Translations under genes and position numbers: made by a program
The notes under the pieces: model-generated
The model's input: the letters and a program-made list of their open reading frames with translations, nothing else
Databases searched by the model: none
Told to the model about the DNA's origin: nothing
Shown: in pieces, positions 1,981 to 53,430 of the stretch
How positions within the stretch are numbered: the first letter of the stretch is position 1
How the letters are laid out: every line of letters begins with the position of its first letter
NCBI GenBank assembly: GCA_002104985.1
Contig: MCGO01000155.1
Location: 24,953-88,952 of the forward strand
Origin: Rhizoclosmatium globosum
Taxonomy: Eukaryota > Chytridiomycota > Chytridiomycetes > Chytridiales > Chytriomycetaceae
Direction of reading: 5' to 3'
Length of the DNA: 64,000 nt

Positions 1981-2050
1981 AACTTTCATCGGCAATACGT
2001 CGCTAATGTGCTCCGCGGGAGGACAGATGCAAGATAGGGTATTGTGTGGG
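1981..2050 (+). repeat. Diverged copy of the dispersed gene-end repeat
   Basis: This is a diverged copy (about 70 bp) of the repeat found nearly intact at 36320-36452, 53352-53430 and, on the other strand, 22398-22540. The shared core is TACGTCGCTA, then CTCC.CGGGAGG and GCAAGATAGG. It starts about 55 bp after the stop codon of the GT61 gene, directly after an AATAAATAA stretch. The orientation relative to the upstream gene is the same as in the other copies. Confidence 0.6.
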
Positions 2051-2177
2051 TTTTTACAGCCAGACTTTTCAAAGAACAACCGTTGTTCAAAGGTGACCTT
2101 TGAAGGATGGGGTGGAATCAAAATCACTACACATAACCATCACACACACGTATTTCTAGAATAAACAATGATCTACT

Positions 2178-8010: not shown

Positions 8011-9390
8011 CTAATTAGCGCCGTTAGCTTGTAATGCTAAAACTACGACGGACAACACTGATGTCACAACAACCAAAAAAAAAGCAACCTTATATGGTTG
8101 AATCGGAATCCACAATGGCACTGCACGAAAAGTGGGGGATATGAAGTTTGGATGGAAAGGAACGCTTGGTCTGTGATTCAAGAGCACTTTCTTTCGTTTT
8201 AGACTCGATAAAAACTCATTATCTTTGCTGCTTCCTCGTGTGTGATTTGATGATTTCCTCTCCCCTTCAAGAATCGGGCTTAACCCCATCTCAAATCCAT
8301 TTCCGCGCTCTTCCGCAAGAGTTTGTGCAGAATCTCGCGCAATTTGATGGAGAGGCGATTCAGCCTCGCTTCCAATGTGAATTCTTGGAATCGACATTGT
8401 TTGCCGATTGGGGTCTTGTTCTTCCCCTTGGTGGTTGTTTATGGGTTGTCGCTTAAATGTTGGCGACACTGTTGACGCGTTGTTGTATGATTCAACTGAG
8501 TTTACATCAAAGGATGGCTTCCGATGCTCGCTGTTACGGTCTCCCCGTCGAGTAGTCACACGAGTAACTGACGTAGATGGGTTCCCTCCAAACATGAAGA
8601 AAATCGATCCTCTCCTTTTGGGCAATCCTTCCGTGTCTGACAGTTCTTCTTCGGGATCAGGGACTGGCTCACGTAACCAAAACTCATCTTGTACTTCTTC
8701 CACTTGCTTCGATTCTTTCGACTGAATGGAAATCCTACAATGAGAATCCAATGACCGAGATTCTACACTCAATTTCTTTCCTGGAAACCTTGGTGATGGA
8801 TATAAAATACTTGATGGTGTTGCATTAGGCGTTAACACCTCAATACTGTCAGGAACTTTGATGACGCCAGGAGTTCCTGAAACCGCTTCCGAATCTCTCA
8901 AAGACTCACCATCAGTCCATTCCACCACTTTCACATTCACAGATGATGGAAGAATGGGATCTTTTGTCTTGACAATCTGCGGCGTTTCCGAAGGAGGTGC
9001 TCGAGTTTTCCTTCGACTGCTTCCCATGAAAGGAAGTGATGCCCGGCGATACACATTCGCCAAAGTTCCTCGCGGACTTCCATCCAAGAACACTTGAATG
9101 AATTTATCTTTGCAATGCACCATTTTAAGTATTTTGGTCTGTTTTGCAGTGAGTTCGCGGGTGATGTTGTATGATTTTCGGAAACGTAGACACTTGAAGT
9201 AGATGAGGAATGGGATGACAAAATTTGCTGGAGATACAAGCAGGACTCCTGTCCAGTTCATGAATGTTCCCAGTGAGTTTCCTGTTTGGAGTGGTTCTTC
9301 CATCTTGGTATAGAAATAGTTCTGATGAAAGAAGCGGTTCCGTTGGAGACGAAGCTTCAGAATCAATTGAGCAGTTGAGCCTCCTGTCAT
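8011..9390 (-). pseudogene. 5'-truncated copy of the AAAP transporter
   Basis: An open frame matching only the C-terminal part of the neighbouring transporter. Homology begins near 9294 (PLQTGNSLGTFMNWTGVLLVSPANFVIP) and runs to the final TM helix (PLWIPIQPYKVAFFLVVVTSVLSVVVLALQ). The charged Ser/Pro-rich segment lies between (EEVQDEFWLREPVPDPE here; EEFWLKEAVPDAE in the parent). The nine or so N-terminal TM helices are missing, and the bases upstream of 9294 do not resemble the parent. It lies directly upstream of the complete gene on the same strand, so it looks like a tandem duplicate that lost its 5' half. The frame is still open over 1.3 kb, so it may be recent or expressed as a fragment. 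Confidence 0.7.
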
Positions 9391-10112
9391 TCTTCTCTGT
9401 TGCTGATACTTTTGCGTTTTGTTTGATGTTTTTCAATGAGGTTGGGATTGTCAACTTTGGGTGGGGGAAGCCGAATTTATATTAATATTCATACGAAAAG
9501 AAGTGTATGAACAGTTTCTAAACTAGTAGAGGTGTTTTTTGTTGATACAATGCTGGTGTTACTTTTGTAGTTTTTCTATGAACACAGCTGGAATTGTCAG
9601 ATTTGGATGATAGATGCTTGCTTGGGGTTGTTTTTCGTTGACATGTGAGAGAGCGAATGAATGAGAGAAGAAGTTTGGTTTTTCGTCTAATATATTAATA
9701 CAACAAACGCTTGCAAGTGAATCCCCTTTTTCCCCTTCATCCCTCCCCTTCCCTTCCCTTCTTCAAGCTGCGAGCGTTAGTTGTCTTTGATTGAGAACTG
9801 TTTGTTCACCTTGAGTCCTCTGCGATGTTACGGCATCCTCTCATTCCGTGATCTGGATTGTCATTGGGTCTGGACCACCGTCCCCCACTCAATTTGATTA
9901 CGATCCCATCTGCCCATATCTCACCCTTCAATTCCTCTTGATACCATCGGTTATTCACTCCTCCTTCCCTATGAACCTGTGGTTGTGTCAAATGTTTGTT
10001 GTTGGTGAAGGAGTGGAAACTTGCAGAGGCTATCTACGCCTAATTCCTTCCATGCCTTTCCTCTTCTTCTTGATTTAAGCACTGATACTAAATATCCGAA
10101 TAGACTTAAACG
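9391..10112. other. Intergenic region, no gene seen
   Basis: Divergent spacer between the truncated transporter (minus) and the giant nuclease gene (plus). It contains pyrimidine-rich stretches near 9728-9762. No convincing coding frame, tRNA or terminal inverted repeat was found by eye. If the downstream gene is part of a transposon, its left end should lie here or further left. Confidence 0.5.
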
Positions 10113-13100
10113 ATGCTATTCTCTTTCTCCGTCGTCGCTCTCTTTGCCTTCCTTTCAAAGGTCTTCACTGCAGCAGGTGTGTTGTGTCTCCTGAATCGCA
10201 ATGAGCATCACTGACAATATATTAACACATAGCATCCTATTCATTCCGTGGTCTTTCGCTGATCATTTGTCGGTGTTTGACGTCTCTTGTCCAAGTGAAT
10301 GTAATCAGGGGTTCCAAACACTGGTCGCCAACCACCGTGGGAGGATTCTTGGCTTCAATCTGTCTTCCACTTGTGGACACGCAGGTACGATTCTTGTGTC
10401 CTCTTGAATCGCATTTCTAACGTTTGTCTTTTCCTTTCCCCACCCAGGTCACCTTGAAACTCTCAATCTCGTCACTCCTTTCCGTGTCCATCTCATGCCC
10501 TCTTCCATTCTTTCTACTTGTTTGGGAAAGATTTCTATTCCAGAACTCACTACGTCTCCAGTTCAAGTTCCACTCAAAATGGTTGAGAAATCATGCTCTC
10601 TTTGGGTCTGTCAGGTACGAACGAAGAAGGAAAGAACATCGCCGACACAAGTCTTGGGCCAAGAGAACTCTCAAAGCCGTGGAGAAGGAACAGAAGATTG
10701 CTCAATTGGTGGAGCTGCTTGCTGGTTATGAACGACTAGTGCACGAGATCAAAGTTGCTGAGCTACTTGCTCGCTATGAGAACCTTGTTACCCCGTTCTA
10801 CGCACTACTGGACTTCTGTGGGTCTATGATTGGCGGGTTCTTGGATCTCGTCAAGTATGTCTGCTACACTTGGCTGTCCAGTTGCAGTTGGTTATCAGTG
10901 CCTTCAAAGCCGCTGTCCGTTCATGACAAGTTCTATCTATCTGTTATCGTGCCAAATGGCTCAATCACGATGGTTCTTGTCTCCAATGATTCAACTGTTC
11001 TTGAAGCAAAACAGGCTGCATCTGTTGGTCTTACAGTTGATGGTCTCCAACTGTATCGACCTGGCCGGCACTGGAAGCGATTGCCCTCATCTCGAACACT
11101 CTATGGTAAGATTCAATTCTTTTAAGGTATCCAGAGCTAATTGTTGGGTCAGGGCTCGGTCTAAATCCCAGTACTCTTGTTCGTCTTGCGTCACGTCCAA
11201 GCCCACACAGCGGATCAAATACCACCAAGACCTCCACTCCAATCACTACTTCTAACCATCTTGATTCAGTCGTGGCCAGTCCAGTTATGGTTGAAACAAC
11301 TGTTTTTCGAAATCCTCGTCTGTCACAGACGACGTCTGGCCAACCCAAGATTCCATCGACAAAGAAGAGTCATCTCTATTCTGGGATTTGGTTCTCGGAC
11401 ATGAATCCTCAATTATCCCCTTCATGGTCTCCTTCCATCTTTCATCCTGCAATGGGTGATATCTCGTCCTTGAATCGGTTGTCTGCTGCCAATAGAAACT
11501 CCACATCGTCTGTTGTCACAACTCCACCAATCCCATCTTTAGTCATCAAAAAACTAAGGCTTTACTTGCCACCGTATAAACCAATCACCTTGATTGACTT
11601 CATTCTGCCACATATGGTTTCTGAACTTGGTAACTGTTCGACACAATCTCTTTGCACTATTTCTCATCCAATATAATTTAATAGGTTTATCAATTCCACT
11701 CGAGCTTATTGACTCAAGTAACGCTGTCATTACCATACCTCAAAGCCACAGTCTTCCACCAGAACCACCTCCTCCTCCACCAACTCCGCCTCCACCACCA
11801 ACACTCGTCCAGCAACTCCAGTCCAAGACTGTTATCAAAACAAAAGCATCCTGGTTCTCTTTGCAATCCATGTCGCAGCATGATTGGATTCCATCACCCG
11901 CACTTGCTTTGGCTATCTTTGAAGCTTCAGATGCTGCACCAAGTGCGATGGAAAAACAAGCTATTATTAAAACAAGCTTCAATACGTGTTTGACTCAAGT
12001 TCTGGCGTTCTTTGTCAAATTGCTGGACGGGAAGCACTTGTTTGTCGAGATTCGGCAAGACACCACTGTTCTTGAGCTTCGAAATTATCTCTTCCAGTCC
12101 AGAAATGTTGCGAAAGCTTTTGCGCTTCAGTTGGTCTTTGGAGGACAGTATATGGATGACTCTCATTTACTCTCGTGTATGTCTGTAATGTTTTGTTTAG
12201 ATGTGATCTAACATTTTTAATTTAGCGTACAATCTCGTTGTTGACTCCACTATCAGATTTGTTGGGAAACTACCTGGAGGAGCCGATAATATGTACTCAA
12301 GTACTGACCCTGACCAAAAAGTTGGTTCATCCAGTACTGATGCGTCACCCGTCGAAAGTCAAGAACCACCGTCTGTTCCTCTTCGTGATGAGTCCAATGA
12401 GCTTCCATCTCTTGGTGGGTCATCAGTGGCTGGTTCGTCTGTTCCAAGTTTCAGCCCAATCCAGCCATATTCGCACCGAGGTCGTCGCCCCTTCCATTAT
12501 TCCCGCCAATCATCCACAACTGTATGTTTTTTTTTTCTTTTTATATTCGAAATAGTCTTGTCTCACTGGTTTTTTAGGATTCTGATCTCAACGTCGGCGA
12601 CTCTTCTGCGACTACATCACGTGGTGATTACCTCGACGTAGCGGCAACACCGACACCAAAGAATCTGAACCAAATTGATTATCAGTCTGACGAAGAGACG
12701 ACTGTCCCACTGAGGTCCAACACTTTAGCCACTTCTGGCTCCGTTGAAGGCGAAACAAGTTCTATTTCCGTTTTGACTTCTTCTCCGTTGCCTGAATACG
12801 CACCATTCGAAATGTCTGGTTTTGATGCGACTTCTATTCCTTCTGCCTTGTCTCAAACTGTTGAAGCCGAGTCGGGTCGTGCGTCCACGCTGTCTGCTCC
12901 TCCGGCTCCAATATCAGAATATGTTTCATTTATTGTGTCTGATTCTGAGACGGAAACTGAACCCTCAACGTGTAATGAGTCTGACCTTGAATCTGTGGCT
13001 GATGTAGAGGTAATATCTTGATTGATGCTCTGTTGAATCTAACTCTTGATGATAAGGTCAGTGACATTGATTCCGACCTACTTGATTGGTTTCAGCGATT

Positions 13101-16100
13101 TGGTTTCGACGACTCAGATGACTCTAACTCTGACTCTGACCCTGACTTGGACTTGGGTGTGGTGGACTTGGAGGTGGACTCGGACTCAGCTTCGGACATG
13201 GACTCTGTTGGTGGACTGGAGGAGTTGCTGAATGGAATCTCAAGTTTGAATATGGACAGCTTTGATGCAGTCAATCTTTTTGAATTGGAGCAAAACCTGG
13301 CAGATCTGGATCTTGCGTATGGCACTGCTCCGTTCATATCAGCTGCTGGAAAAGGCAAAGGAGCAAAGAAAGCAAAAGAGTCAAAACCGGCCAAAAAATC
13401 AGTGAAAGTGAAAGCAGCAACAGCGAAATCAGCGAAAGGGAAAGGAAAGAGAGCAGTGGAGGATGATGATGCGGATGATGTTGAAGAGGATCCTCCTTCG
13501 GATCCAGTACCAATGGTGAGTTTAGCAAAATGTTTCTCGTCATGATTCTAACCACAGTATTATTGTTTCGTAATAGGAGCCTTTGTCTCTTACCCGCGTC
13601 AAAGTACCTCGAGGTTCCATCTATGTTGATGCCAGCACATCATTTATTCCCAACACCCTGAGGCCACGCTACCGCCTGTTTGCTCGTGCTTATGATAGAT
13701 TCTTGAGTACCTCACGATCGCTACTTAGTTGTCAAGCCTTTTTGGATACTATTGACAGTATGACCATCCATGAAGCTCTGGCCTCTTTTGAATCTCAGTT
13801 TGGGTTCATTCATCCGGCCGGGCCTGCCTTGATTGCAATTCGTAATCGCATTATTTCCGTGCGCAGACACAATGTTGAAAACAATCTGGAGGGTGAAACG
13901 CAGTTCAGTATAGTACCTCAACTGTACAAGTGTCCTCAGGGTATGATTGATGGATTGGATCACTGCAGCTGTTTCACAGGGGACTGGAGCTACAGTATCA
14001 ATCAAGCAACTTTTAATGTACTTCAAGAGACCCATGCTGCCACTGTATTCCCTCTGAGTGGAAGTTCTGAACAGTTGAGGAAGGAGTTGGTGTCTCGAAG
14101 GCAAAACGTTGTTCCAACTGTTGTGTTTATCTTGTCGCTGAATCGGTTAGTTCTCTTTCTTACAGTAGAATTGTTGGAGTTGACGCATTTTGATTTATAG
14201 GTATCTGTTCTGTCCAAAGATACTCCTGGACGTTGGTGTGTGTGCTGAACCAGTTCTGGGAAACAAGGTTGCCAATGTTGAGGCTATTCACGAAGCCATG
14301 TACAAAGTGACTTTGGCGCTTTTAGTCAAAGCTGGTGCCGCTTCTTTGATGGATGAAGCAGAAGTCGATGTTGGTGAAGATGGTATAGGTATTGGCGGTT
14401 TTGGTGTTGCTGGTGTTGGTGTTGGTGTTGGTGCTGGTGCTGGTGCTGAACCTGGAACTGGTGTTGGTATTGGTGTTGGTGCTGGTGGGAGTGGGAGTGG
14501 GAGAGGAAGCGGGAGTGATGGCATGGAACGTCTTGTTGCAGACGAAGGATTCACGGCTGTTGGCAGTGGGAAACCTGGGATTCTCGGAGGGTCATCCAAT
14601 GTACTTGGAGGTGGTGGGGTCAGAGATGTTGGCAGAACATCCAATGTACTTGGTGGGGGAAGACAAGAAAGACAAAGTAGCTCTGTGTTTGGAAGCTGGC
14701 CTCAACGTCCTCGACCAGACAGCAGCGAAGCTTGGAAGAAGGAGCACTTCATACTAATGGACAAATTGCAGAATCAAGATTATCGACTTGCGGAGGTATT
14801 TACCGAACAACACTTCTTGGTATGATGTTTCATTTTTGTTTGTCATACTCATTTCAACACTTAGAATGGCTTCTGTCCACTGTGTCAAACTTCTCACCAA
14901 AAGTCAAGTGACGCGGCAACGTTGGCTGCGTTTGAAGCCCACTTGTTGGCTCAACATTTTCATCGACCTGCTTCGTCACGGCCTACTGTTCCTTCGAGAG
15001 GATCGTACACAGATGCCAATCTTTTCAACATCCATCTTGCTCGACTTATTTCAAACTCACCCAAAGCTGGATCACAGGTTTGTTTTGAATCTTGCCAATT
15101 TTATATTTTACTTACGTGGTGGTTCTGTTGTAGGACGATACTTGTCCTGTCTGCCTTCAAGATGGATATTGTCAAGACTTGATACGACACATGATTGAGT
15201 GACACCCAAACTATGATCCAGCTGTTACCGCTGTTCCTACTGTTCCTACTGTTCCTACTGCTCCCGTCGCTCCCGTAGCCCCCGTAGCCCCTGTTGTACC
15301 TGTCGCTCCCTTAGCCCTCGTTGCACCCGTTGCACCCGTTGCTCCTGATTCTCCCGTTGCTCCCGTTGCTCCCGTTGCTCCCGTTGCTCCTGTTGCTCCT
15401 GATTCTCCGGCTCTGGCTGATCCAACTACTACTGTCACTCCATCCACAAGTACCAACTCAGTTGTGAATCGACAATTGGTGGCTGGTTCTGACGCCTCTC
15501 GCTGTGTCACGTTGCTTGGGATTATGGACGCTCGTCTAGTAAACCAGGCCTTCGAAATGGGATCAAGTCACGTGTATTCAGTCAATCATCCAGCAACAGC
15601 AGCCCACTCTATGCGTCCAGGCAGTTATCCAATTTGGATCAAGACCAACGATGGAAAACAGTTGAAACCTCCACGGACAGCCATGACAAATCGGGAGCTT
15701 AAACTTCATGACTTTATTGTTCTTCGCCAACTGGCTGCTACCTGGCAGGCGTTCACAAATGGTGATCCGACTGACCTTGACATGTCTAACGTATATCACG
15801 CCGTGAAGAATCAAGACGTTTCTCAAAGCTATGGTCCGTACTTGGCGCACCGACTTGATTTCGCAGCAGCCAATAAATCCAAGCTGAGTGACAAGGAGGC
15901 AATAGAGTTGTTTGGTGCAGTTCAGCAGTACAACAAGAAGGGCGGGATCAAGAATGTGACTGGGGTTATTGTGGAAACACTGCACTGGACAAACAGTGCA
16001 CGTTTATTGAACACCCCCATTCATCAACACCGAGTCCAAGTTGCTCAGGACAACCAGCACCGTCTTGATCTTCAAGTTGATGCAGTTGGAAACGTTGTTG

Positions 16101-19100
16101 TTGGTGGTGTTGACGTTTTGCACGATAATGAAGACGTTGAGATGGGAGAGGCACATGGTGAGTGATTGTTGTTGAACCACGTATCAAAACTTACAATTTG
16201 AAAAGGATTGGGAGAGTGTCAGCTATTCATTAATGCCACTCCAATCAGTCCCGCATTTTTTCTCCAGTCTTCTGAAAACTACACAGAGCTGATGGACTTG
16301 AGCAAACTAATGTTGATTGGACTTTCTTTGCTCAACAAGAAGGTTGTTGGTCGCAGCCTCAAAGTACAAAAGAATGGTATGCATCACGTATTCCAATCAG
16401 CGTTGACGTTACTGAACGGGCTTGCTGACAATGGCCCAACGGTTACAAATGGAGAATGGTGTTCTGGGTCTGTCTTGTTCAAACACTATTCGAAAGCACC
16501 TGATTTCACCAAAGAACCAATGACGTTTTCAGGAGCTACGGAGCTTGGTGTTGTGTTCTTCAAGAATAAGGATTCAAAGATATCTCATGTATGTTTTTTC
16601 CACTTCTTTACAAGAATTAAAACTGAGCATTGAACAATAGATTCTACCTTTGTTTCAAGTGCTGGCTACAACTTCTTTCAATCCCACCAGGAATCAACCT
16701 GTCTCTGCCAAAATCAAAGTGCTGGGCCTTCACTCAATTCTTATGGGCGAGACTGTGGTTCTTCGGGATTTCCGATATCAAACAACTCATTTGCTCCACG
16801 TGGGGAAAGAGTCACATCAAAGACTGTATTCCATTTCTCAGTCATTCATAAGACCTGACACCAACGAAACCCAAGTCTATCTTTGGAATGAACTTATTTC
16901 TCCAGCTTGGAATGATACTCTTCGACGTGTTCGAGGCCACTCTGTTGCTGTTGGAATCCAAAACTTTGTTGCTGGCTTGGTACATGAACAGCCTGCCTCT
17001 CTTGTTTCTGTGTCTGGCAGTCAAGACAATGCCTCTGTGTACCGAAACAACTTCAATACAGTCATAAGGAAGCTCTTATCTCGTCACCCAAAGTTCAAGA
17101 ATTCCAACAATCTTGTTTTGAACGCTGCCATCGCAACCCACTTTGGTCGTGGTCGGGTCGCACAACCCATGTCGTCTCCACTGTCTATCTCGAAGCTTGG
17201 ATATGCAAACATGCGCGCAGTAGTCCAAAGGTGGTTAAAGCTGGAAGAAACTCTGCCGTATATGGAGCGACGTTTTGAAGGTGGCGCGCAGCTGACTCTT
17301 GATTTTGTCCTAAATCAAAGAGTTCAAGAGCGCTTTGATGATGATGACTGGGATTTTGTATTTCCTCAGCACAACTTTCCGAATCTGACACTTCAAACCA
17401 ATATTCTTCCTTCTGATTCCAAAGTCTTGAACATCCGTCCAGTTGTTGTTTCCTTGGATGGATCCAAGTTTACTTTCAAACTGGATACAAAGGAGCCCAC
17501 ATGTCTGGTACTGTGCCTTCACAACGAGTTCCGCAACTGGGCGAGGTTCCGCGTAACTGGTCCAACAATAATCAATACGAGGCTTTGTTTCTGCCGCTTT
17601 TCAAACAGAACAAGACTGGAGATTCTGAGACTGAGAGTGACAAGACCAAGAGTGATGGCCCCATTGAGATTGAAGAAGTTCAAGTCTTGGTATAATATTT
17701 AACGTATGGAACCTTAATGTAATCTCTAACCCAAATACCTAGAAACAACCTCGTCGCAAGATTGATACTTCAATCTTTGAACTAGACAACAAAAAGATAA
17801 AACAAATGGCTCCCAAAGTGATCAAGATTCTCAAAGAAGAGCAGGAACGTCAGCTGAAACAAGCATTTGTGAATCGCCGCAACCTTGCTGATGATGCAAC
17901 CCAAGAACAAATTGATCTTGCGTAAGTGTTCTTTTACTTCAACGTTGTCATCAAAGAACTGACCTTTCTGGGTTTAGGGACATGACTGCTGCACAAGCAG
18001 ACATGATACTTGAGCGGAAAAGGATGACGGTTGACAAGAAAGACCACGAACAGCATTTCTTGAATACATATGTAGCTTATGGTATGTTTCTCAGATAACT
18101 TTATACTCCTCTTTGTTTTTCTCATTTCATCACTTTTGCTGAATAGGAACGGTTCCAAATGAAGCTGAAAGACAGTCGCTCAAAGCTTACGTGGACCTTT
18201 CAACCTTGATCTTTGACACTGTCCACGTGCTTACTCCTGGAACCATCAATTTGTTCAACAAGTTGCATGCAGCCGCTGTAAACATCAGACTTCAAAATGG
18301 CCCGCCTGAAGATCAGAATCAATATCCAGTGCATCACAGAATATTATCGTTTCTAGACTCTCCAACATTCAAAAGAAACCAGAGCCCTGAGATTGAGAAT
18401 AATCGTCTATCTGTTGGTCAGCAACCTCAGCATCTTCTTGAGATTCTACGCGACCTGTTCGGAGATAAAAATTCAAACCCACTGAGAATTCTGTTTGATA
18501 TTGTTGTCGAACTTGATGGTCTCAAACAGTCAAAGTCGAGTTCTTGGGATCGAATGATTATCTTGGCCATGTTGTTGGGAGCAGCAAATACCAGTGAATC
18601 GCTTCAAGTTTGGGAAGAAGAAATGAATGATGGAGCTGTTGGGTTCATCACCGATTCTGGACAGTATTGGTACTATCCTACAGACCACTCTGCCAAACAG
18701 CTCGCGCTCTTAAGGACTGCTGTCGTTACTCAACTTTTGGATCCAGAATCTGGCTTCAACATCCCCAACAAGGAACATTACCTTGCAGTGTACTTGAAGG
18801 ACTCTAGCATCTCAGCGTTGAAATTGAGTCTGAGCATCTGGCTTGAAGATGACTTGAAGAGAGAAAAGAAGGCTGCAAAGGTGGCTGAAGCAGACAGTAG
18901 TGACAATGAAGAAAGTCTTCAGGGTGAGGATAATGAGGATTACATTCCACGCCAACAGAACACAAGTGAAGATACATCTGGAGAGGTTGTTTATCGAGTT
19001 CGACTTGCACCAGGTGTTGGTCAAGCTCTTCCAGTCCAAAATCTTCATGATGCTGCTCAAAGTTTCTCAGATCTCTTGTTTAATCGGTTCCCTGATTCCA

Positions 19101-22100
19101 AAGTCCCATTGACTGATGCAGAACTTGGTACCACTAGAGCCATGGATGTGATTATTGAAACTGGCCCGTTCAGTATGGTTGATGGGTTTCTGGTTGGTGC
19201 TGATCATCAAGTGACTCTGAATTCTTTGAGTCCACATGAACTTTCCATCTATCAGTATGTCATGAATTTACCTGCCTACCAACTGGACGAGGAAATCGAT
19301 GAAACTATACAGTCGCAGAATAATATTGAGCGTTACAGGCATCTGGCAATCATCACTGGAGTTCGGCCTGCTGTCGGAGGCAACTTTTACGCCAAGGCTC
19401 TTTCCCAGTTTCTGGATGCTCTTGTTGTTTCATTTGTCATTAAGCCCGTGAAAGAAATTGATGTTGAAATACCTGTTGGAGTTGGAGTTGGACTTGGAGT
19501 TGGAGGTGGAGTTGGAGTTCAAATGGAAGAGGGAGTGGATGAAGAAGACAAAGCCCCAGAGGACAACTCCCAGCTAACTCTTGCTCAACTAAGAACCTTG
19601 TTCAAGACCTCCATTCTTCAATATATCCAGCCTGTTCAGTGGGGCTTGTGTCTGGAAACTGGAACACGATTAGTATCTTCAAAGGCATATGTCAACATCA
19701 CACATTTATGCCGAGATGATCTTGTAAACTTGTTCACTGATATATTTAAGCTGAGCAAGAGCAAGTATTTGTTGTTTGGGAATGAAGGATACTTGGAAAA
19801 CAAGGTCGGTGAACAGCTCAATAACACAGGTGTTGTGCAGGGTGCGTTCAAAGGCGCTATTGCGAGATACAAGACATGGACTACAACTGGCCTGAAATTT
19901 GGTAATCTTCTTTCCTTTCTTTGACATCATGTCTTTCATTGCGCTTTCCTAATCCAACACATTCAACCAGGAAAATCATTCCATGACCAGTTCAGCCACT
20001 CAAATCGTCGATATCTCTCAGTTGATGGTCACACCATATTTCCCAGACTGCCTGACTCACAAGTTCGTGGGATGCAGTCTGCTGTCTTTGATCAAAACAA
20101 ACAAACAGCTGCACACACTGAGGGCTATTTCCTTGATTCTTGTGATGAACCCACCAGAGACATTCCATGGCCGCCTAACTTCCCTTCTGTCAATTTGCAT
20201 TACTTGAACTTGATGCGTCTGGCTTTAGAAAAAGGAGGTCCACTCTGTCAGAGACTTGTTGTTCATCCACTGGGATTCAAGATATTTGCGAGTGCAAGGA
20301 ATGTCATTCACCTTTGTCTGACAAAGAACTCCACGATTAACTTCCCGACTTCCAAGAATGAATTCGTGACGTATAGGCCAGGTGCAATCAGTATTACGTA
20401 TGACAGGGAAACTGGAATCTTCAAATCAATGCTGCCGCTTCAAACTCACCACATGAACACCCATGAATTAGGACAGATTACAAAACATTATTCATACAAC
20501 AACGCCCCTCGACGGTATCCAACAACAACACCCGCAGTCAACCGCAATTCCATTGATGTCATCTTTAATGAAGTCCAAGAGTTATTGTCAGATTCTTTGA
20601 AAGAGATGGCTGAGACACGAAAATACTATGCTGCAAATCCATCAAACTTGAAGGCACGCGAGGAATATCGGCATGCATCGCACTTGGTTCGGTACATTCG
20701 AAATCGAATTCAGAATGAATGTTCTGCAAAGCACCGCCGCAAACTGGAAGATGCCATGACTGTTTATGCTCGTCAACACAACTTTGGTTCGTTTCGTTAC
20801 GACTGTGTCAAATTGGGCGCAGTACATGCTGAAGATACGGAATTATTCAAATCTCGGATGGGATCCTTCCACAGTCCTGATGTTTGGATCACAAATCCAT
20901 CAGAAGCTGTTCAGTCTGCGTTTCGGAATGCGTTTGGAACATCTCGTTTATTGTTGAGCAGTGATCCAGGTGGAAGAACAGTGGAAACGCAGATGGCGAG
21001 TACAGGCCATGTTGTTCAGATTGGAGTCGGATTTGAAGCAGTGATTTGTCGTCTTCAGAAACGCATCAGCACTCTTCAATCGTTTCGAGACAGGGCCATT
21101 GATCAAATTGACACTGTGATAGTGCTACGGAGTCGTGTTGCCGCTGCTGAATTAGATCTTGTTCAATACGCTTCTGGTGATCAAGTTGTGGCAAAAGAAA
21201 CATTGCGACTGGAAAATCTTGTACTTGCAGCAGAACAGGAGTTGGAGGCTAGGTTGAAGGAGCTTCGCGCGTCAGCAAGAATGGTTCGTAAACCAACTCC
21301 TGGCCCAGATGACATGAATCTGGTGGACAAGGAAAATGATGTTCTGGATGAAGTGGGGAGAGTGGATAAGGAGTTGAAAAAGATGCGAAATGAATTCAAT
21401 GTTACCTTTGATGGAGGTGGTGTTGGAGGAGGTGGTGGAGATGACACCAACCTTTTGTCGCGCCTGCTCAAGAACGCACAGGACAAATTGAACAAGTACG
21501 CTCAACGAGTTCGTCGATCTGCTGCAGAATGGAATTCTGGTGCCGACTCATATGCCACATCGGACTTCAACTCCAAAACTACAAACAAGAAAGTGACTTC
21601 TGGGAAGGATGGTATTCCAAGTGAGTGTGATTGATCACTTAATTTTGAATCTAACCTCTTTTATCTTAGAATGGGTCAAGACTGTCCTCTCATATGCGGC
21701 CCATGCTTCCATCAGGAAACAAACTACAGTAATGGCGTACAAAAAGTCGGAAAATGACGGTGCATTCTTTAATCCTGGTGGACCTGCCTGGCATATACCC
21801 ACAATGAAGAGAGTCATGGCCAAAGAATTTGATCACCAGTTTCCTCTTGTTGGTAGAGTTGGAAAGATCAAGGCTGTAGTCATAGTGACTGAGGTAAGAG
21901 TCTCATGCATTTTACTTTATTTAACCTGTTCACTGTTCACTAGATTGGGTCAACAATCATGTGCTTTTGTGGCCGCATCTCTCGAATCGGGAAGGCAAAG
22001 ACGTTCAAGTGTTCGAATCCACGGTGCAGTGGTCGTGCAATATGTTCACGTGATAGTCTCACCTTTCGTCTCCCACGCGACATCAAAAGCGGCTTATTCA

Positions 22101-22519
22101 TTGAGAATCTAACGTGGGCAATTGCGTTGATGCGGGTTCATCACCACATTCGAGGTGGTGGGACGGGAGGTGCCGAAAACAATGATGGCAACGGCGATCC
22201 AGGAGGTGGAGGACCGGGTGGAGGAAGGAGAGGAGGAGGGAGTGGTGGAGTCAGACGGGAAGGCGGAGGACAAAGTGGTGGCAACAACAACAAACCTCCT
22301 CCGGCAAAGAAACAGCGTATTGTTAAAGGGCGTTTGGAATATGTTGCAGTGGAGGAGGTGGAGAGGGAAGGGAGATTGGACGAAGGTGGGATTGGTTCCA
22401 CTTCGAGGCAGGCTGAGGATCACTACGGAGGATCTCAGCAAATGGACAACAAATCCACACACTTTCCTATCTTGCAATTGGCCTCCCGTGGAGCTGCTGG
22501 ACACGGTAGCGACGTATAG
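10113..22519 (+). CDS. Giant Fanzor/TnpB-like RuvC nuclease with ubiquitin-like domains and zinc fingers
   Basis: One reading frame of about 3,750 residues can be followed through about 20 short GT-AG introns (first exons 10113-10176, 10233-10384, 10448-11105, 11153-11629, 11685-12176). N-terminus: hydrophobic, about 75 residues, then a basic helix. Ubiquitin-like segments lie near residues 232-290 and, more clearly, 553-615 ([37 protein letters not shown]). Acidic, Lys-rich and Gly/Val-rich low-complexity stretches follow, then two C2H2-like fingers (14872-14960; 15143-15205) and a Val/Ala/Pro repeat. The C-terminal 500 residues match the TnpB/Fanzor plan: Asp in SSDPGGRT (codon 20963), Glu in VTEIGST (21892), a C4 ribbon ([12 protein letters not shown]), Asp in CSRD (22052), then an NLS-like PPAKKQR. 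TnpB and Fanzor proteins are RNA-guided DNA nucleases; that activity here is inference. Problems: in-frame TGA at 15200-15202 and a frame change near 17500. A fusion of neighbouring genes is possible. Confidence 0.7.
14395..14515 (+). repeat. Gly/Val/Ala-coding minisatellite in the giant nuclease gene
   Basis: Tandem GGTGTTGGTGTTGGTGCT-type hexamers coding for GVGVGAGAG. They remain in frame and lie between two conserved blocks. A similar GTTGGA repeat occurs at 19478-19520 in the same gene. Confidence 0.8.
15215..15415 (+). repeat. Val/Ala/Pro-coding tandem repeat
   Basis: GTTGCTCCC-type 9-mers coding for repeated VAP units (with PTVPT units at the start), immediately downstream of the in-frame TGA at 15200. 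The pyrimidine-rich sequence could alternatively be the 3' part of an intron running from a GTGACA donor at 15199 to an AG at 15450, which would restore the frame and skip the stop. Confidence 0.6.
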
Positions 22520-22540
22520 CTGATGTAAGTGTTTTTTATT
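22398..22540 (-). repeat. Dispersed repeat overlapping the 3' end of the giant nuclease gene
   Basis: Read on the minus strand, this begins ACTTACATCAGCTATACG and runs to AGCCTGCCTCGAAGT. It matches 36320-36452 over about 130 bp and 53352-53430 over about 78 bp, with few differences. It encodes (on +) the last about 40 residues and stop codon of the giant nuclease. On minus it follows directly on the truncated P450, after an A-rich AATAAAAAA run. On + its outer border is a perfect GTAAGT splice-donor-like sequence. Confidence 0.75.
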
Positions 22541-23643
22541 TTACTGTCATTTTGCTCATTTGCTTTAGCGTCCATTGGATAGCGATGGAGACCGTGTCAA
22601 TGGTGCCGGCAGTAAGGTTGTTGAGCATATCACGCAGGGCCGAGGGTGATACGGTAGAAGCAAGAGAGGGGTTGTGAATGATAAGCTCCATAATGCTGGC
22701 ACCGTGATTGTCGTCCGTGTCTAACTTTTCGTCGACTTTTCCGTATTTTTCACGGGACATTTTCATGAGACGCTCAATCAAGGCGTTACCAGTTTGACGG
22801 ACTCGTTTCGCTTCATTGATGTGAGCATTAGGCAGCCACTTGAGCCATGGAAAAAACGCGCATTTGTCCGTGGCAGCGCCTGCCAACTCAAAGACCTTGT
22901 CTGTATTTTCAAGGAAGGTTGCACACACTTTGTCACCGACGTGATCAATTGATAGGCCAAAGCAAATGAGCAAAATGACAGAAAAGTTGAAGCGATCAAG
23001 TTGAGATTTCAAGTCCGCGTTTAAGTCCACGTGCTTGGCACCAAGTTGGTTCACAAGCGACTTCAGAAACACAAAGGTTTCAGCCTCAAGAACAGCACTT
23101 TGTTTAGCGAGGGCAGAGCGGGACAGCGAAAGCTGCACGAGTTTGCGGAAGGATTTAAAGTTAGGATTTGAGTGGTGGGTGAGTGTCGGAAGGCCGCCAA
23201 GGATAATGTTGCCAAGAACCATGTCCTGTGGCCTGTCATTGAATGCGGGAATAGTTACGAGGTCTCTCTGCAGGTAGTTTGGTAATTAAGTGAGATGCAT
23301 CAGACACAAGTTATCCACAAGACATCCAACAACAACAATAACAAACCAGGACAAATGGATCCGAGACAACAAGAACGCGTTTCACACCAAGGCGTATCGT
23401 AAACACGGGGCCATACCGCTCGCGCCAGGCCTTGAACGCCACGTGTGGAAGATCACCGAGATCAGAGTAGTTTCCATCGAGCGAGAACGGGAACGTGAAC
23501 AACGGCGGACTAGGACCCGGTGGCAGCTTCGTGCTACTACTACTGCCATTCATGCAATTCATGCCATTCAGAAACATGAATGCTGCGACTAAGCCCGCGC
23601 CAACGAGCGTGATGAGTGTAAAAGCACTTTCAAGCGTGTCCAT
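22536..23643 (-). pseudogene. Cytochrome P450, truncated after helix I
   Basis: N-terminal half of a microsomal cytochrome P450. It has a membrane anchor (LITLVGAGLVAAFMFLN), the proline-rich hinge (KLPPGPSPP near residue 40), an intron near 23361-23280, and conserved core sequence up to the helix-I oxygen-binding motif AGTIDTVS near 22600. The frame stops 16 residues later in LKQMSKMTVK. The K-helix ExxR motif and the haem-binding Cys loop are absent from the window, so no haem can be held. The break coincides with the dispersed repeat and the 3' end of the giant nuclease gene. The natural reading is a P450 gene cut by insertion or rearrangement of that element. Confidence 0.75.
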
Positions 23644-23852
23644 ACTATTTTTAGATGTGCCAGGAGCAGGATTGATTTGATTGGTTGTTTAAACTTTAGT
23701 ACTAGTACTGTATTTTTCCTGAAGGAAGACTCAAAAAAAACCCCTCCTCCCCCCAAACCGACCAATAATACAGTAGTGACCCATGGGGTTTTCAAACGAC
23801 CCCCACAGGTACATAATCGATAAAAAAGAATAAAAAGAAAAACCCAACAAAA

Positions 23853-26622
23853 TTACACTGACTTCTTCCGCTGCATTGTGAATGGCCTCTTCAGCCCATT
23901 CAGTCTCATATACCAAAAGCACATCCAAATATTCCTTGCTGCGTTTCTATCTCGGTCCCACATTGTACCACAGTGGTGGCAGTACTTGAGACCACGGAGG
24001 GGGCTACCAACAGGAACACCTGCATGAAATGCCAACTTCACCCGCTCAACCAATGGTAAGTGCTCTTTCCATCCTGGTCTAAAAGCTTTAGAGTGCTTGA
24101 GAATGGTCTTGGATTTTGCACGAGCCACAGAGTTGGTGAGTGGGATTCTTCTAACATCTTCAGGATACACATCCCCAACACCTTCCCGTTTCCATATTTC
24201 AGAAGGATGAGTGACATGGATGGCATATATCCCTTCTGGATCTAGTCCATCAGTTGAGGCTGGTGCAGACAAACTTTGAAGCAGAGTATCCAATGCAGCA
24301 CTCCACAACTCTTCTTCAACTTCCATAGAAGTAGAAGTGTCTCCACTAGTAGCAAGCTCTCCCTCCTCCAATACATCCTCCATTATGTCTGATTCCACAG
24401 CCAAACTCTTAGACTCAACAGTCACTGACACTGGAGCAGTTTCAGATTCCTCCAAATCCATAGGGTCTGAGTCATCTTCTTCCTCCACACCATCTCCCTC
24501 TTCAACAGTTGTTAAACTCTCTCTCAAGTCTTCACCATCTTCCCCAAATTCTCCCTTGTCATCACCATACCTTCCATTCTCCTCCTCTCCTTCTCCATGG
24601 TGATCAGCATCTTTTTGGGTAAAGAACTTGGAATTGTCAAACTGCTCAGTCTCATCAACACTGAATGACTCATCAGCACCCAAAGACTTCAACAAGGCTT
24701 CAATTTGTGCAAGATGGAGGAAAGTACCATCATCCCTCTGAGTCAACAACTCATTCAAATCTTTCCCTGCCAGCAATTCCTCTGTCAACTTTGCAAGTTC
24801 TTGTTCCACCTCAAAGTCGCAGCTACATGGACCCAAGTCAATCTTTCCACCTTTAAACCCTGTACCCCAACAACAACCAGGATTCATAGTTGATTTGAAC
24901 TCATCAACGTTGATCCAGCGGAACCTTTTCTTCATTTCTTTCAGCAGCCGCCCCCCACAGCCTGAAACAGTCCCCTTCATTTGTTGCGAGAATTCTGCAC
25001 TCCCAAAGACACAAGTCACCAACTTTGGATCCAGATTCCCATGAATGTATCCCATGAACACCTTCAATGCGCGTTGCTGACCACGATACACCATCATTTG
25101 TAGAAAGTCTTGCCGCAAATAGAGCTCATGGAGAACAGGGAAAGCAGCAAAGGATGTGGCACATGCATTGTTATACTGTTGGACAATAGTTGTCTTGCCA
25201 GACTGAATAGACTTGATCTTGTCTGAAATAGTAGCTTTGATGTGGCTCTTCTTGTCATCAATGATGGCATTGAACTTTGCAATCCTTGCCCCAGTCTTGC
25301 CATCCATGTTTGCACCATTGAGTTCCATTTCATATGCAGAACAAATCTCCTTCTGCAGGACGTCAGCCATATCCATATTTGCCAGATTTCGAAACTCCTC
25401 GTTGCGCAGTGGAAACCCCATGCCACGAGCCTTTTCTTCTGGAGATAACTTTTCGTAAGCAAATCTCCCAAATTGCTCCTTCCTCTCCTTGAGTTGAGCA
25501 AGTGTACGGGTTTGGCGGTTACGACTATATCGAGCCTTCTTCCGCTGCTTGTCGAGGGCAGCCTTTTTTATAATTTCTTGTCGTCGTTCTGCTGACGGAT
25601 GCTCAGGGGCACTAAATCTTTGTGAGAAACTATTAACAACAAGCAGGAAAATCACACCAAACAATACATACACAAAGGTTCCTTCCTTGATGGCTAAATT
25701 TCTAGCATGTCGATTTCTGTTCTTTCTTTGACTCTTTGAAAGTCTTGGAGTATTTGTTACAGGGTCAACAACAGGGGCTTTGGTTGGACCATTTGGGACT
25801 TGGTTTGGACCCAGACCAGCACCAGAACCAGGACGAGCTTGCACATGCACATAGAAAGGAGTGATGATACCCTTGTCAAAAGCAAACTCCAATCCTTCTG
25901 GTGGGAGAGAGATGGTTTCGGCAGTAGTTTTTCCAGTGTCTGGGGTAGCAACCTTGGGCCGAAGACAAGTGATGCTGACATCACTCTCAGATATGTTGAT
26001 GGATCCACCTTTGTTAATTGGATCAGTATGGATTGGAAACAAAGAAGTAGAACTCACCAAACTTTTTCAGGGTATTTTTGTCAAAGTTGCAGAGGGCCCC
26101 CCAAAGTTCTGGCTTTTTCCATATGGCAGAAGAAACAAAGGTGGATTGGTTGGTGTTTGGTGGAAGCTCCAGAGCATTTAAAACACGATCGCGCTCATTT
26201 CCTGTACTATACTTGACTGCAAGCATTGCCATTGTTCTGTCCAATAGATATCAACATAATAGAAAATAGTACAATATTAACATACTTTGTGTCAATTGGG
26301 AGAGATAAGGGTTTGAAAGAGGACTGAGGGTTGGTGTGCCAGCCTTTTGTAACTCCTTGAGGAAGGGTTCCAAAAGTTCCCACTCTAAAGTCTTTTTGTT
26401 GAATCCTTGAGATGCAATCCATGATGGCTGCATTCAACTTGTCAATCTCTTCTACATCGGCAACACTGACCACTCCTCTTGCACGGAAGAACATCTTGTT
26501 GTAGAATGGATCCGTTTTATTTGGATGGGAGAGGCCTGACAAGACACCACGACGGAACTCATGGCCAAGTACATTCATTTGAGCCAGTGAGAGAGGTCTT
26601 TTAACAATGTCTCGAATGATTT

Positions 26623-26701
<79 letters not shown>

Positions 26702-29700
26702 GTTTGGGAGAGAGAAAGACTCACTGTTGTAATAAAAGACTGGTGGGATTGTCAATGATGGATTCCCCTTGGAGGTTGCAATGTTTACTGGATCATACAA
26801 CTCCCTCATTTCTGCCAACCAGAAATGGCCTTGTTGATATCTGTCAAAAATAAATCAGACAGCATAGTCAAATCATTAAAACTTACTTGATTCCATGTAG
26901 CTTGAAATTCCTGTTGCACAAGGGAAGCATTCCCTGAAACTGAAACTCCACCAGCTCAAAAAAGTCCCCCATGTACCTCATTATTTCCTCAGCAGCATCC
27001 TGTGACTGTTCACCAATAAAGTCCAAGATCTTTTGATTGTCAAATGTAGCGTCATGTTTCCACTTTGGAAGCGGGGGTAGTGAATGGTGACCTTTCTTTC
27101 TTGCTTTTGCAAACTCCTTCTTGTCATTCACTTTGAATTTGGCAGTGTAGTACTTGCACAAGTTCCCCAGCTCCTTCCAGTCTACCACAAATATCCCATG
27201 ATTGCGCAGGACAGAGCGAATGATAAGAAACAGCGTATGTGTGATTCTGTTTCCTGTGTGTATCTGTTGGAGTATTGGTGTTTAGACTGGTGCAATTGAA
27301 CTTGTATTAACAAAACACTCACAGTAATATGCCTGAGAAAGTCTGCAGCAAGTTGCTCTGAGATGTGAACTAGTGTGTTTGCAAAATCAGTTGTGTCCAC
27401 AGGATGGATTGCAGGGACACTGGCATCACGTTTGAAATCTTTGAACCAAGCTCCCAGTTTTGGATGGCTTCCCTTGGTTGGTTGTTTCAAGTTTCCGTCG
27501 GATGCAACCATGACAAGAACTGTGCGGTAGAAGTTTGAATTGCAAGGCAGCATTGGAGCAGATTCAGACTGTTTGGATTCTTCATACATTCTCAAAGCTA
27601 CATTTGTGGCAAACCGAGGAACAATGAAGCGAATAAGAGCAAATCTATCAAGATTAAATGAGCAACAGCCAAAAAAGGATGAAACGCGACAAACCTTGGT
27701 AAATTCTTCTTTAGTTGAATATCCAAGCAACCTCCAAGGGGAACAAAACTAGAGTAGGAAGTCTTGACAGTGAATGAATCAGTTTTGGGCATCTTGGCAT
27801 GGGTTTCTGGACGCCCAGCCTCAATCCACTCAGTCAACATTGGTTGGAGAATTTGCTCAAAGTAAAACCGTGACTCCTTGAGATCCAAAGCAGATTGATA
27901 ATTTGGGTTCTTGCAGTTGACACTTGGAATAAGGTAAGCCACGATGGGGTTACCAGAATTTGCTGCCTTCCATTCTATCAAGTCAAGTGTCAGTCTAAAC
28001 AACACACAATTCATCAAAACAAACTCACGTTCAACTTTGGTCCACAGAGGATGAGTAAACTCTTCAAGCTGATGGTTATATTGAAACAAGCAACTGCTAC
28101 TAGTTGACCGCTTGTGATTAGCTATTCCACACTGACAGTTACCAGCCTTCATTTCATCCAGAGTGGCAATAAGAGGCATTCGTGGGGGAAATGAGAATAA
28201 ACTTGATGAGTCAACAACAACCTTGGCTTTTTGGACCTTGTTGAATGCTTCCTTGATTGATAAAGCCTCAGACAAAAGTGACTTGAATGTCCTTGCATTG
28301 CAAACCCACCATTTGAGGCAGGCATCACCCTTTGCAGCAGCAAAGACCTTTTCCACGTCCACAGCTGCAATTTGGTTCAGAGCCCGAAAGAGTGGCCCAC
28401 ATATGTATGAACTAGATACAAGCTTGAAGAAGTTTGCAAGAAGTTGAGGTTTGAGAGTTGGAGGGTTCAGAGATGATGAAAAGGACTTATTTGGACAAAA
28501 GTAGCCTGGAGCTTGTTGAGTGGCACCACTGGGATGAAGAGAAGATCCAATTCGACAATCTGGCAAGAGTGTTGAAGTGTTGTGTTTCAGTTCCAATGGA
28601 TTCTTGGCTCCTTCAGGTTGAGAGTAAAAAGGAGCAATCTCCACATGTGATGCAGCAACAGAGCCAATAACTTGACAATCATCAATGTGAAGGTAACATT
28701 GCCGCGCGATCAAGTTGATCTCCAACACACAATGGTCAATCTGCCACAGAATATCTGCTTGGTTACAATCCTCCCCTGAAAGCTCTGCATATGGAACAGG
28801 CTTTATTTGTGGGAAAGGGGGAAGGTCGAAACGAGGTGGCCGGGGTGCGAAAGCATGTGGAGGTGGGAAGTCAGACTTTGGAAGGTTCGGCGAATACAAA
28901 TTTGTAGCAGTGTCCCACTCAACCTCCTTTGCACTATTTACAAATGCAAAATGCTGAGCATCAGGTGACCACATGGCATATGATAACTGGTTGGTCCAGG
29001 TGGTTGAGTTTGAAACTGTGTTGAAGAATGCCGGAGGCCCATCCTTCTCTGGATAGAAGGCAATATGTGTTGGCAGTGCAGTTGGCAGTGCGAGGTTTGG
29101 GATGCCAGAAACAGAATCACATGGGACAGAGGCAACACAGGGAGCAGCAGGTGCACACGGAGCAGATGGAACACATCCAGATGGGCCAGTTTTACAAACT
29201 TGGAAGCGATTCTGGTTACAGGCAGCGCGAGCCTCTTCAGAATCCTCAATAATCACTGTCGAAACACCCTGGAGAGCAGCCAACTAGAGAATGAATGTTA
29301 GTTGCACTCTCAGCCAAAGTGCCGTCTTACCTCTTGGTCAAACAGTAGATTCAAAGAGCCCTCCTCAGTGTATCAGTTAAGGACAAGAACTCCAGCGACT
29401 TTACAGGCAGCATCTGAAGCGGCAGCAAAGGGCGAACCAGAAAATGAGAGGCGTCCAAGTCCCAAGAGATTTTTAACTGCACACTCAGCCAAATACAACA
29501 CTCTGCTGATTCTGACGTCATCTGCACTGAAAAGAGTCGATACGCGATGCTGTTCCAGGATGTTTGCACGCGACTGGCTCTGGAACCCGCCAAAGCATTG
29601 TGGAATCAAGTCAAGGCATAACTGAGGAGTCCGGTTTGGGTTTTGACGGAGAAGATTGATTTGATCTTTGCAGTTTCGAATCTTCTCGAGTATATCAGGG

Positions 29701-36291: not shown

Positions 36292-36319
36292 TGAAGATGA
36301 TGATTAAAGTTGGAAAAAA

Positions 36320-36452
36320 CTTACATCAGCTATACGTCGCTACCGTGTCCAGCAGCTCCACGGGAGGCCAATTGCAAGATAGGAAAGTGTGTGGAATTGT
36401 TGTCCATTTGCTGAGATCCTCCGTAGTCATCTTCAGCCTGCCTCGAAGTAAA
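36320..36452 (+). repeat. Longest full copy of the dispersed gene-end repeat
   Basis: About 130 bp nearly identical to the 3' end of the giant nuclease gene (22398-22540, opposite strand). It begins ACTTACATCAGCTATACG after an A-run, about 30 bp downstream of the coiled-coil gene's stop. Its minus strand has an ATG-initiated 34-codon frame (starts MTTEDLSKW, contains [10 protein letters not shown]) ending just before a GTAAGT donor-like border. Confidence 0.75.
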
Positions 36453-51996: not shown

Positions 51997-53300
51997 ATGG
52001 CCCAAGTGCTTGAAGGAATTGCCCGCTGGGCCCTGCCAATTGGAATTGCAGCGAGTGGACTGCAGTATGCGATGTATGATGGTGCGTGTAGTGTGCTTAG
52101 TTACCCGTGGAAGTATCCAGTTAACCCTCTATCCAATACTCACAGTGAAGGGAGGACACCGTGCTGTTCTCTTTGACCGTGTCCGTGGAGTCCTGCCTGA
52201 CACTGTATGTATCGGACACTATCTACTAGGCATGCATACACCCGCATTGCTAACGATTGAGTGGTTGGGTGCTAGGTTGCTGAGGGAACACACTTTCTTG
52301 TTCCATGGCTCCAAAAGGCGGTTATTTTCGATGTCCGCACTCGTCCTCGAAACATTTCTACCACAACTGGTTCAAAGGATATGCAGATGGTGTCCCTGAC
52401 ACTCCGTGTTTTGGTGTGTATTTCAATTGTTGCAAACGTGGATTGGAAATCAGATCGGATCCCACTTTCTACCCTTCCCTTTACCAAATGCACTCTGCTC
52501 TGGTATATGGTTGGCGTACTCGTAACAAGTTGGCCCTACTAAGTGGATTTTGGAGTGGTAGTGAGTTGGAGGGATACTCACTTTGAATATTGAAGCTGAT
52601 CTGAGATGTTCTGTCGTACTACTCTTTCGTATGGTTGGAAGGAAGAGGGAATCTGCGTATGAACAGTGATGGACATTCTTCCGATGCGATTTCAAATCCC
52701 TTCATGCACTCCATCCCATCCCACTCCATTTGGTACCATTCTAACATAAGAATATAGCACCGCCCTGAATACTCTCAACTCTCAACAATCTACCAAAACC
52801 TCGGCATGGATTACGACGACCGTGTCCTCCCATCCATCGGAAACGAAGTCCTCAAATCCATTGTCGCCCAATTCGACGCCTCCGAACTCATTACCCAGCG
52901 TGAACTTGTTTCCCAACGAATCCGCGACGACCTCGTGAAGCGTTCCTCCGAATTCTCCATCATCCTCGAAGACGTGTCGATCACACACTTGACATTCGGA
53001 AAGGAGTTCACGAATGCTGTTGAGCAGAAGCAGATTGCGCAGCAGGAGGCTGAGCGGGCCAAGTTTATTGTTGAGAAGGCGGAGCAGGAGAAGTTGGCAG
53101 CAATTATTAAGGCTGAGGGAGACGCTACTGCTGCTGACTTGATTTCTAAGGCGATTAGTAAGGCTGGAGTTGGATTGGTTGAGTTGCGTCGTATTGAGGC
53201 GAGCAAGGAGATTGCTTCAACCTTGTCTGGAGCCAAGAATGTGACTTACTTGCCTGGAGGCGCTGGAAACAACTTGTTGCTTAACTTGGGTAACCAGTAA
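51997..53300 (+). CDS. PHB1: Prohibitin 1, copy A
   Basis: Prohibitin of the mitochondrial inner membrane, which forms ring complexes with PHB2 and chaperones membrane proteins. Four exons: 51997-52081, about 52146-52203, 52276-52411 and 52758-53300. N-terminal hydrophobic anchor ([20 protein letters not shown]), then SPFH sequence [60 protein letters not shown] and [20 protein letters not shown], and a C-terminal coiled coil ([20 protein letters not shown]). Length fits the family. The same protein is encoded by the inverted copy at 54132-55444; the last exons are identical at protein level. The dispersed repeat and a PHB1-exon scrap follow its 3' end. Confidence 0.92.
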
Positions 53301-53351: not shown

Positions 53352-53430
53352 TACTTACATCAGCTATACGTCGCTACCGTGTCCAGCAGCTCCACGGGAG
53401 GCCAAGTGCAAGATAGGAAAGTGTGTGGGA
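53352..53430 (+). repeat. Dispersed gene-end repeat, third near-identical copy
   Basis: About 78 bp starting ACTTACATCAGCTATACG directly after GTCAATAAAAAT, about 50 bp past the prohibitin stop. It matches 36320 onward up to GTGTGTGG, then switches abruptly to a prohibitin-derived sequence. Confidence 0.75.

Follow-up and report, generated by a model that had tools for sequence, protein, structure and literature searches.

Fanzor1 proteins such as SpuFz1 of Spizellomyces punctatus are eukaryotic RNA-guided nucleases, mostly of 600-700 residues (PMC11423790). Unlike most TnpB proteins, Fanzors combine a DPG motif with a glutamate placed six residues ahead of the zinc finger (PMC10711439), and the guide RNA of SpuFz1 comprises a 75-nucleotide (nt) right-end scaffold and 14-15 nt of flank (PMC10432273). 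The Fanzor1 families CRe-1/2/3 of Chlamydomonas, ascribed to one-ended Helitron2 transposition, have the same population structure as the element described here (PMC3627910). This analysis concerns a 64,000-nt stretch of the chytrid Rhizoclosmatium globosum (the window; contig MCGO01000155.1, positions 24,953 to 88,952, forward strand). The best explanation, which we regard as reasonably probable, is that it holds a degraded copy of a 13-kb copy-and-paste chytrid mobile element. The only recognisable gene of this element specifies a giant (~3,800-residue) Fanzor-like protein with a putative nuclease and guide role, and the element would be mobilised in trans.

The window copy of the repeat unit spans 9702..22530 (+), or 12.8 kb, with sharp homology ends against C253, C13:488k, C21 and other copies; in the 56.9-Mb genome it is found on contig C63, which is 88,952 bases long. 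The exon encoding the RuvC part (19973-21634) has 27 genome matches: 20 near-full-length places, with identities of 77-100% over 551-553 of the 553 residues, among them the window itself, one copy with two TGA codons, and C253; and seven partial or diverged rows, two of them from a single place and one representing the diverged relative L153. The last 200 bp of the element match 36 times and the first 401 bp 11 times. Among the right-end matches, 17 cover at least 199 of the 200 bp, 11 start inside and reach the end, and eight stop short of it. Seven of those starting inside are, within the flanking sequence retrieved, fragments of the 3′ end alone, 37-131 bp in length: L050-L054, and two in the window at 36319..36449 (-) (131 bp) and 53353..53428 (-) (76 bp). 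The other four (L013, L022, L023 and L024) are copies with internal deletions or rearrangement. A diverged 3′-end copy of 72 bp, 74% identical, is also found in the window at 1982..2053 (-). The terminal 22-mer occurs 30 times in the genome with at most three mismatches, and its reversed control not at all. Left ends are ragged; the shared sequence extends 19 to ~200 bp left of 9702, partly owing to later insertions, and the window copy is therefore slightly 5′-truncated relative to its siblings. The element boundaries, the copy number and the fixed 3′ end had all been missed by the first-pass annotation, which was made from the sequence alone.

Segmental duplication of a host gene family, without any mobile element, would fit the concentration of copies on C413, C13, C190 and C334, the identical flanks of C253 and C13:488k, and the near-identical flanks of L022 and L024. 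The flanks of most other copies, however, diverge directly after the same 3′ end, and the 3′-end-only fragments are dispersed. C253 itself is probably a redundant, error-rich contig of C13:488k, because 1.5 kb of left flank is identical between them and many of the internal differences are single-base; it was set aside as an independent copy. We give segmental duplication very little credence. Beyond R. globosum, the search for chytrid homologues that had been suggested finds relatives in R. hyalinum, Rhizoclosmatium sp. JEL0117 and Podochytrium. Within R. globosum, the annotated protein P0002 (BCR33DRAFT_727891) is 100% identical over 52% of the exon query. A separate observation is that the annotated R. 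hyalinum protein P0008 (HDU99_007296) joins the element's C-terminus to a PF00150 (cellulase-like) protein, which is probably a gene-prediction fusion.

The giant gene occupies 10113..22519 (+), with 20 exons and 19 introns placed by reading GT-AG boundaries, beginning at the previously predicted start at 10113; the frame in the window copy ends at ~22519-22526. All 19 introns are GT-AG in both the window and the sibling C13:488k (C13:487-500 kb, L028-L030), and the sibling is open for 3,811 codons under the identical intron model. The single frame across about 20 introns claimed at first pass is therefore borne out by the sibling, whereas the window copy carries an in-frame TGA at 15200-15202 and a frame break at ~17481 against its siblings, so that the gene at this locus cannot be called intact. 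The two copies differ by 33 insertions or deletions. The exonic ones are multiples of three or, within a glycine-rich stretch near 14519, add up to a multiple of three, with the exceptions of 17481 and 22451; the remainder are located in introns or upstream. All 19 paralogues compared, including a subfamily at 77-78% amino-acid identity, have introns 17 and 18 with GT-AG boundaries at matching positions; for intron 19 this holds in 17, L015 and L020 being unclear there. Introns 1-16 were compared in three copies, C253 among them.

The gene is under purifying selection. Between the window and C13:488k, the ratio of nonsynonymous to synonymous differences per site (pN/pS) is 0.28 over the whole gene and 0.06-0.71 in 19 of the 20 exons, the twentieth being unchanged. 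Over exons 18-20, omega is 0.11-0.31 in 14 chosen pairs of the 120 possible among 16 copies (16 of the 20 loci; L007, L013, L015 and L020 were left out). Introns within 10177-21943 diverge at 79 of 1,020 sites (7.7%), less than the synonymous pS of 17%. The exons thus evolve as one constrained unit in a mobile element, and the earlier suggestion that a Fanzor was captured by a second large protein, or became fused to it, is not supported. Taken together, the data support one giant gene of ~3,800 residues, several times the usual Fanzor size, ending in a Fanzor-type catalytic signature.

That signature begins with a RuvC-I DPG at 20963..20971 (+) (sibling residue 3326), which reads SDPGTRT in Podochytrium P0010. 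An alternative RuvC-II glutamate (VTE, 21891..21893 (+)), after which intron 19 follows, is positioned six residues before the first ribbon cysteine; the sibling E3619-x6-C3626 reproduces the Glu-to-ribbon distance of the published Fanzor rule. The zinc ribbon at 21962..22027 (+) has the four cysteines reported at first pass, with 13 residues between the pairs, spaced C-x-C and C-x4-C rather than CxxC, and some of them are lost in divergent L153. A conserved RuvC-III RD (22076..22081 (+), within LPRDIKS) falls inside the interval of 5-50 residues after the ribbon that is expected of a Fanzor. The triad described previously would consist of DPG, VTE and RD, with a different final residue: the aspartate of CSRD (22052-22054), eight residues after the ribbon and inside the search pattern of PMC10711439, is not conserved, and Podochytrium P0009 and R. 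globosum L153 retain only the later RD (RDxxS...W...AL). The third catalytic aspartate is probably the RD of LPRDIKS, and the CSRD placement probably wrong. Family motifs read SDPG[GT]RT...STGH...GFE..I..LQK.I..LQ and FKCSNPRC. The relative L153 (G000:C334:103500-107700; 25% identity) has FNDPG, TESNTTIMDFCG and GSRDPLSSQ, and its zinc ribbon is partly lost.

A widened pattern, DPG...E-x6-C..C..C..C..RD, composed post hoc after inspection of the sequence and with spacings relaxed to fit the protein, never arises when the C-terminal 611 residues are shuffled 20,000 times or the whole protein 3,000 times. The C-terminal motifs are retained in a 45%-identity homologue (a fragment, over its reach) and partly in L153, and the helix after RuvC-I aligns weakly by hhalign with bacterial TnpB, in the expected register. 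These features suggest that the C-terminal part is Fanzor-like and probably a divergent Fanzor1 relative. Viral relatives were considered and rejected: 417 viral-contig stretches fit a pattern, and tblastn shows none of them to be related.

The fixed 3′ terminus (22456..22530 (+)) appears to be conserved as nucleic acid. In an alignment of 14 of the 20 loci, six being left out, nine copies end in ...SDV and five in ...LLDTLATYS or similar, the last 75 nt being read in two frames. Between the frame groups these 75 nt are 94% identical, compared with 74% at exon-18 third positions in the same pairs; when the five frame-2 copies are compared with the distant subfamily only, the values are 94% and 62.5%. 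Such identity despite two reading frames suggests that selection or homogenisation acts at the nucleic-acid level. By analogy with SpuFz1, the last 75 nt are a candidate for a guide-RNA scaffold, a transposition end or both; their conservation could also stem from gene conversion or from a transposition signal. A more ambitious reading, offered tentatively and in our view rather doubtful, is that the element represents a new giant, intron-rich Fanzor class with built-in ubiquitin-like domains. Its 3′ terminus would be the guide scaffold and the 37-131-bp end-only copies would be standalone guide loci, allowing one nuclease to be aimed at many sites, with a second large Fanzor-like family adjacent.

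Rolling-circle mobilisation is slightly preferred to retroposition, because introns are kept and because CRe-1/2/3 offer a precedent. The genome contains at least 18 Helitron_like_N and at least 132 RVT_1 matches, and the element copies tested keep their introns, unlike copies of long interspersed nuclear elements (LINEs), which are intronless. In the retroposition reading, unspliced RNA of the element would be copied by target-primed reverse transcription, the reverse transcriptase coming in trans from a LINE or Penelope-like element, with or without help from the nuclease. Mobilisation of intron-containing genes is reported for Penelope elements (PMC3846280). Such a route would account for 5′ truncation together with a fixed 3′ end, could draw on the RVT_1 matches, and would fit the duplications. 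These are seen at C413:141k (18 bp; on one side 195 bp to the left of 9702, on the other 48 bp past the end), at L050 (12 bp; 1 nt from the 5′ boundary and 11 bp past the end) and, by eye and imperfectly, at L051 (~25 bp); they sit 11-48 bp beyond the fixed 3′ end. Of 17 copies, 4 have exact flank-to-flank matches of 12 bp or more, versus 1 of 272 mismatched pairs, with flank lengths of 150-1,400 bp. Two of the four (C13:488k and window 53353) are off the boundaries, leaving two exact cases and one imperfect one. The 15-bp repeat at C13:488k was rejected as a target duplication, its left copy lying within a contiguous stretch found elsewhere in the genome, and the 16-bp repeat at window 53353, off the boundary, was not counted as clean. 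The contiguous stretch at C13:488k is FKBP-like by reading.

Some 3′ flanks recur between copies as if carried from a source, ~43 bp of the flank of window 53353 reappearing at L002 and ~27 bp at L003, which again would suit retroposition. The retained introns would not, nor would the lack of poly(A) past the element end, and most of the 17 copies are without a clean duplication. By Pfam, reverse transcriptase is absent from the window exons and from 3,690 of the 3,811 residues of the spliced sibling; the RVT_1 match nearest to a 22-mer end is ~9 kb off, on the opposite strand (C63). Retroposition is a serious contender that, in our judgement, falls short of an even chance.

Further upstream in the protein are parts that may be accessory. 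The N-terminal region (10113..11105 (+)) has four hydrophobic stretches in a hydropathy scan of the sibling protein (residues 1-23, 28-46, 77-98 and 182-211), and the scan marks others near residues 1539-1582, 2849-2867, 3374-3392 and 3611-3631. The two ubiquitin-like segments noted at first pass differ in strength. The second (12011..12275 (+), with intron 12177-12225 inside) is solid, since PF00240 matches the spliced sibling at E 1.7e-10 and a PDB search returns ubiquitin. The first (10925..11185 (+), with intron 11106-11152 inside) is weak: its top five PDB matches are all ISG15, the best at E 0.0011, and a Pfam scan of its exon gives no match. The segments match each other at E 0.008. Two C2H2-like motifs, previously called fingers, are visible by eye: CPLC...H...H at 14874..14966 (+), with no significant Pfam match, and a second at 15143..15205 (+), broken in the window copy by the in-frame TGA, whose best Pfam match, zf-Di19 at E 0.08, is under the cut-off. 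Over sibling residues 1-3,690, Pfam reports nothing above cut-off besides ubiquitin-like domain 2.

A number of results weigh against the preferred reading of a mobile, Fanzor-like nuclease gene. The RuvC part has no Pfam TnpB or Fanzor domain, and Cas12f1-like_TNB (PF07282) is unmatched in the own-genome search and protein scans. Published spacings are exceeded: D to [TS][TS] is 295, above the range of D-X(125,275)-[TS][TS] (PMC3627910), and DPG to Glu is ~290 residues where the search pattern of PMC10711439, DPG-x(120,160)-E plus CxxC pairs, allows 120-160; the CxxC spacings of that pattern are absent too. The hhalign comparison with a TnpB profile built from 20 of 92 TnpB loci gives p 0.054 (reversed control 0.25), and PDB searches of the RuvC part give no relevant match. 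Both AlphaFold models are unusable, with a mean predicted local distance difference test score (pLDDT) of 33 (8 sequences) and 42 (4 sequences); no fold search was run on them, because at such values matches are meaningless. At the 3′ end, covariation is found in 0 of 19 pairs, folding is mildly stable (z -1.5 and -1.4), and Rfam has no match. Other 60-base stretches in exons 18-20, compared over 14 of the 20 loci, likewise reach 95% between subfamilies, and the frame difference is therefore the stronger argument for nucleic-acid conservation. As to movement, target duplications are clear in few of the 17 copies examined, and neither the 22-mer (3 mismatches) nor an exact 12-mer of the end is found near the 18 Helitron_like_N matches, in a search placed by domain match and not by Helitron ends.

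The missing Pfam match, weak hhalign result, unusable models and out-of-range spacings are why the protein is termed Fanzor-like and not formally a Fanzor. Of the comparison with TnpB proposed at first pass, what agrees is the order of D, ribbon and RD; the proposed new giant Fanzor class keeps its giant gene and Fanzor-type signature, and neither the profile searches nor the two AlphaFold runs confirmed the fold. The absence of profile and fold support is what would be expected if the product were a large structural or effector-like protein in which a C4 ribbon and acidic residues coincide by chance. Fanzors are not known to have ubiquitin-like domains or a hydrophobic N-terminus, which also favours a non-Fanzor reading; a Crinkler-type effector with a ubiquitin-like N-terminus may be one candidate. 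A chance coincidence sits poorly with motifs in the published order and at the exact Glu-to-Cys distance, with the 0 of 20,000 shuffles, with retention in the 45%-identity fragment and partly in L153, and with a mobile, multicopy setting. We consider it unlikely.

If the preferred reading of a mobile Fanzor-like element holds, the C-terminal RuvC/zinc-ribbon part would act as an RNA-guided DNA nuclease. The conserved 3′-terminal 75-190 nt would serve as guide-RNA scaffold, and the DNA just past the end would supply the guide, as in SpuFz1. Cutting of a homologous or emptied site by this nuclease may favour the spread or retention of the element. Mobilisation would depend on machinery in trans, most likely rolling-circle and one-ended, like the CRe-1/2/3 Helitron2 of Chlamydomonas; this mode would retain introns and yield 5′-truncated copies. 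In the protein, the ubiquitin-like domains and the hydrophobic stretches near the N-terminus would be accessory parts, perhaps for stability or localisation.

The window contains several further features. A cytochrome P450 N-terminal part (22536-23688 (-)) abuts the 3′ end of the element, and the open reading frame (ORF) to the left of the element (8011-9432) has no Pfam family match. Large, split Fanzor-like genes at 23853-29283 (-) and ~38481-44200 (+) belong to a second multicopy family, which comprises five copies that are 98-100% identical and a subfamily of six at 36-38% identity. Its (+) copy has GDPG, E-x6-CxxC and WERDK; its (-) copy has DKG and WDRDRNAARNI, is without E-x6-CxxC, and gives a weak TNB match. 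Near-identical inverted ORFs, prohibitin-like by reading, lie at 52758-53300 (+) and 54132-54674 (-), around the 76-bp end-only copy. NTPase-like and ankyrin-repeat-like ORFs, labelled by reading of their translations, occupy 58465-62245 (+), and a reverse transcriptase ORF fragment (62429-63925 (+)) is at the contig end.

Among the matches listed in a literature search of titles and abstract openings, whose coverage excludes most subscription journals, there is no giant or ubiquitin-bearing Fanzor. If true, the preferred reading would extend Fanzors from mostly 600-700 residues to ~3,800 residues with ubiquitin-like domains, selected while mobile, and would raise the question of what 3,000 additional residues are needed for in a eukaryotic RNA-guided nuclease. 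With the nucleic-acid conservation of the 3′ terminus and the end-only copies, the biogenesis of guide RNA would become open to direct testing in a chytrid, and the intron-keeping amplification of a 13-kb gene bears on the unsettled mode of Fanzor element movement.

Compared with known systems, the element resembles Fanzor1 (SpuFz1) in its DPG, alternative glutamate six residues before the ribbon and distal RD; in its multicopy occurrence on a mobile element; in a conserved right end at the stop codon; and in its end-only copies, comparable to the 'ghost' loci of PMC10432273, although those have both ends and the copies here are without the left end. It differs from Fanzor1 in protein length (~3,800 residues versus mostly 600-700; PMC11423790), in having 19 introns and not one ORF, and in its C-x-C/C-x4-C ribbon, longer D-to-ribbon distance and ubiquitin-like domains; terminal inverted repeats were not noticed, no systematic search having been made. 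With CRe-1/2/3 (PMC3627910) it shares a fixed 3′ end, 5′ truncation and apparent variable-length target duplications in some copies, but no terminus in common with an autonomous Helitron was found, and 11-48 bp separate the fixed end from the duplications. Kept introns, 5′ truncation and apparent target duplications recall intron-keeping Penelope-like retroelements (PMC3846280), from which it differs in that Pfam finds neither reverse transcriptase nor GIY-YIG. Bacterial TnpB (InsQ of IS609) has the same order of D, zinc ribbon and RD, whereas the DPG and the position of the glutamate here are Fanzor-type and the protein is about nine times longer.

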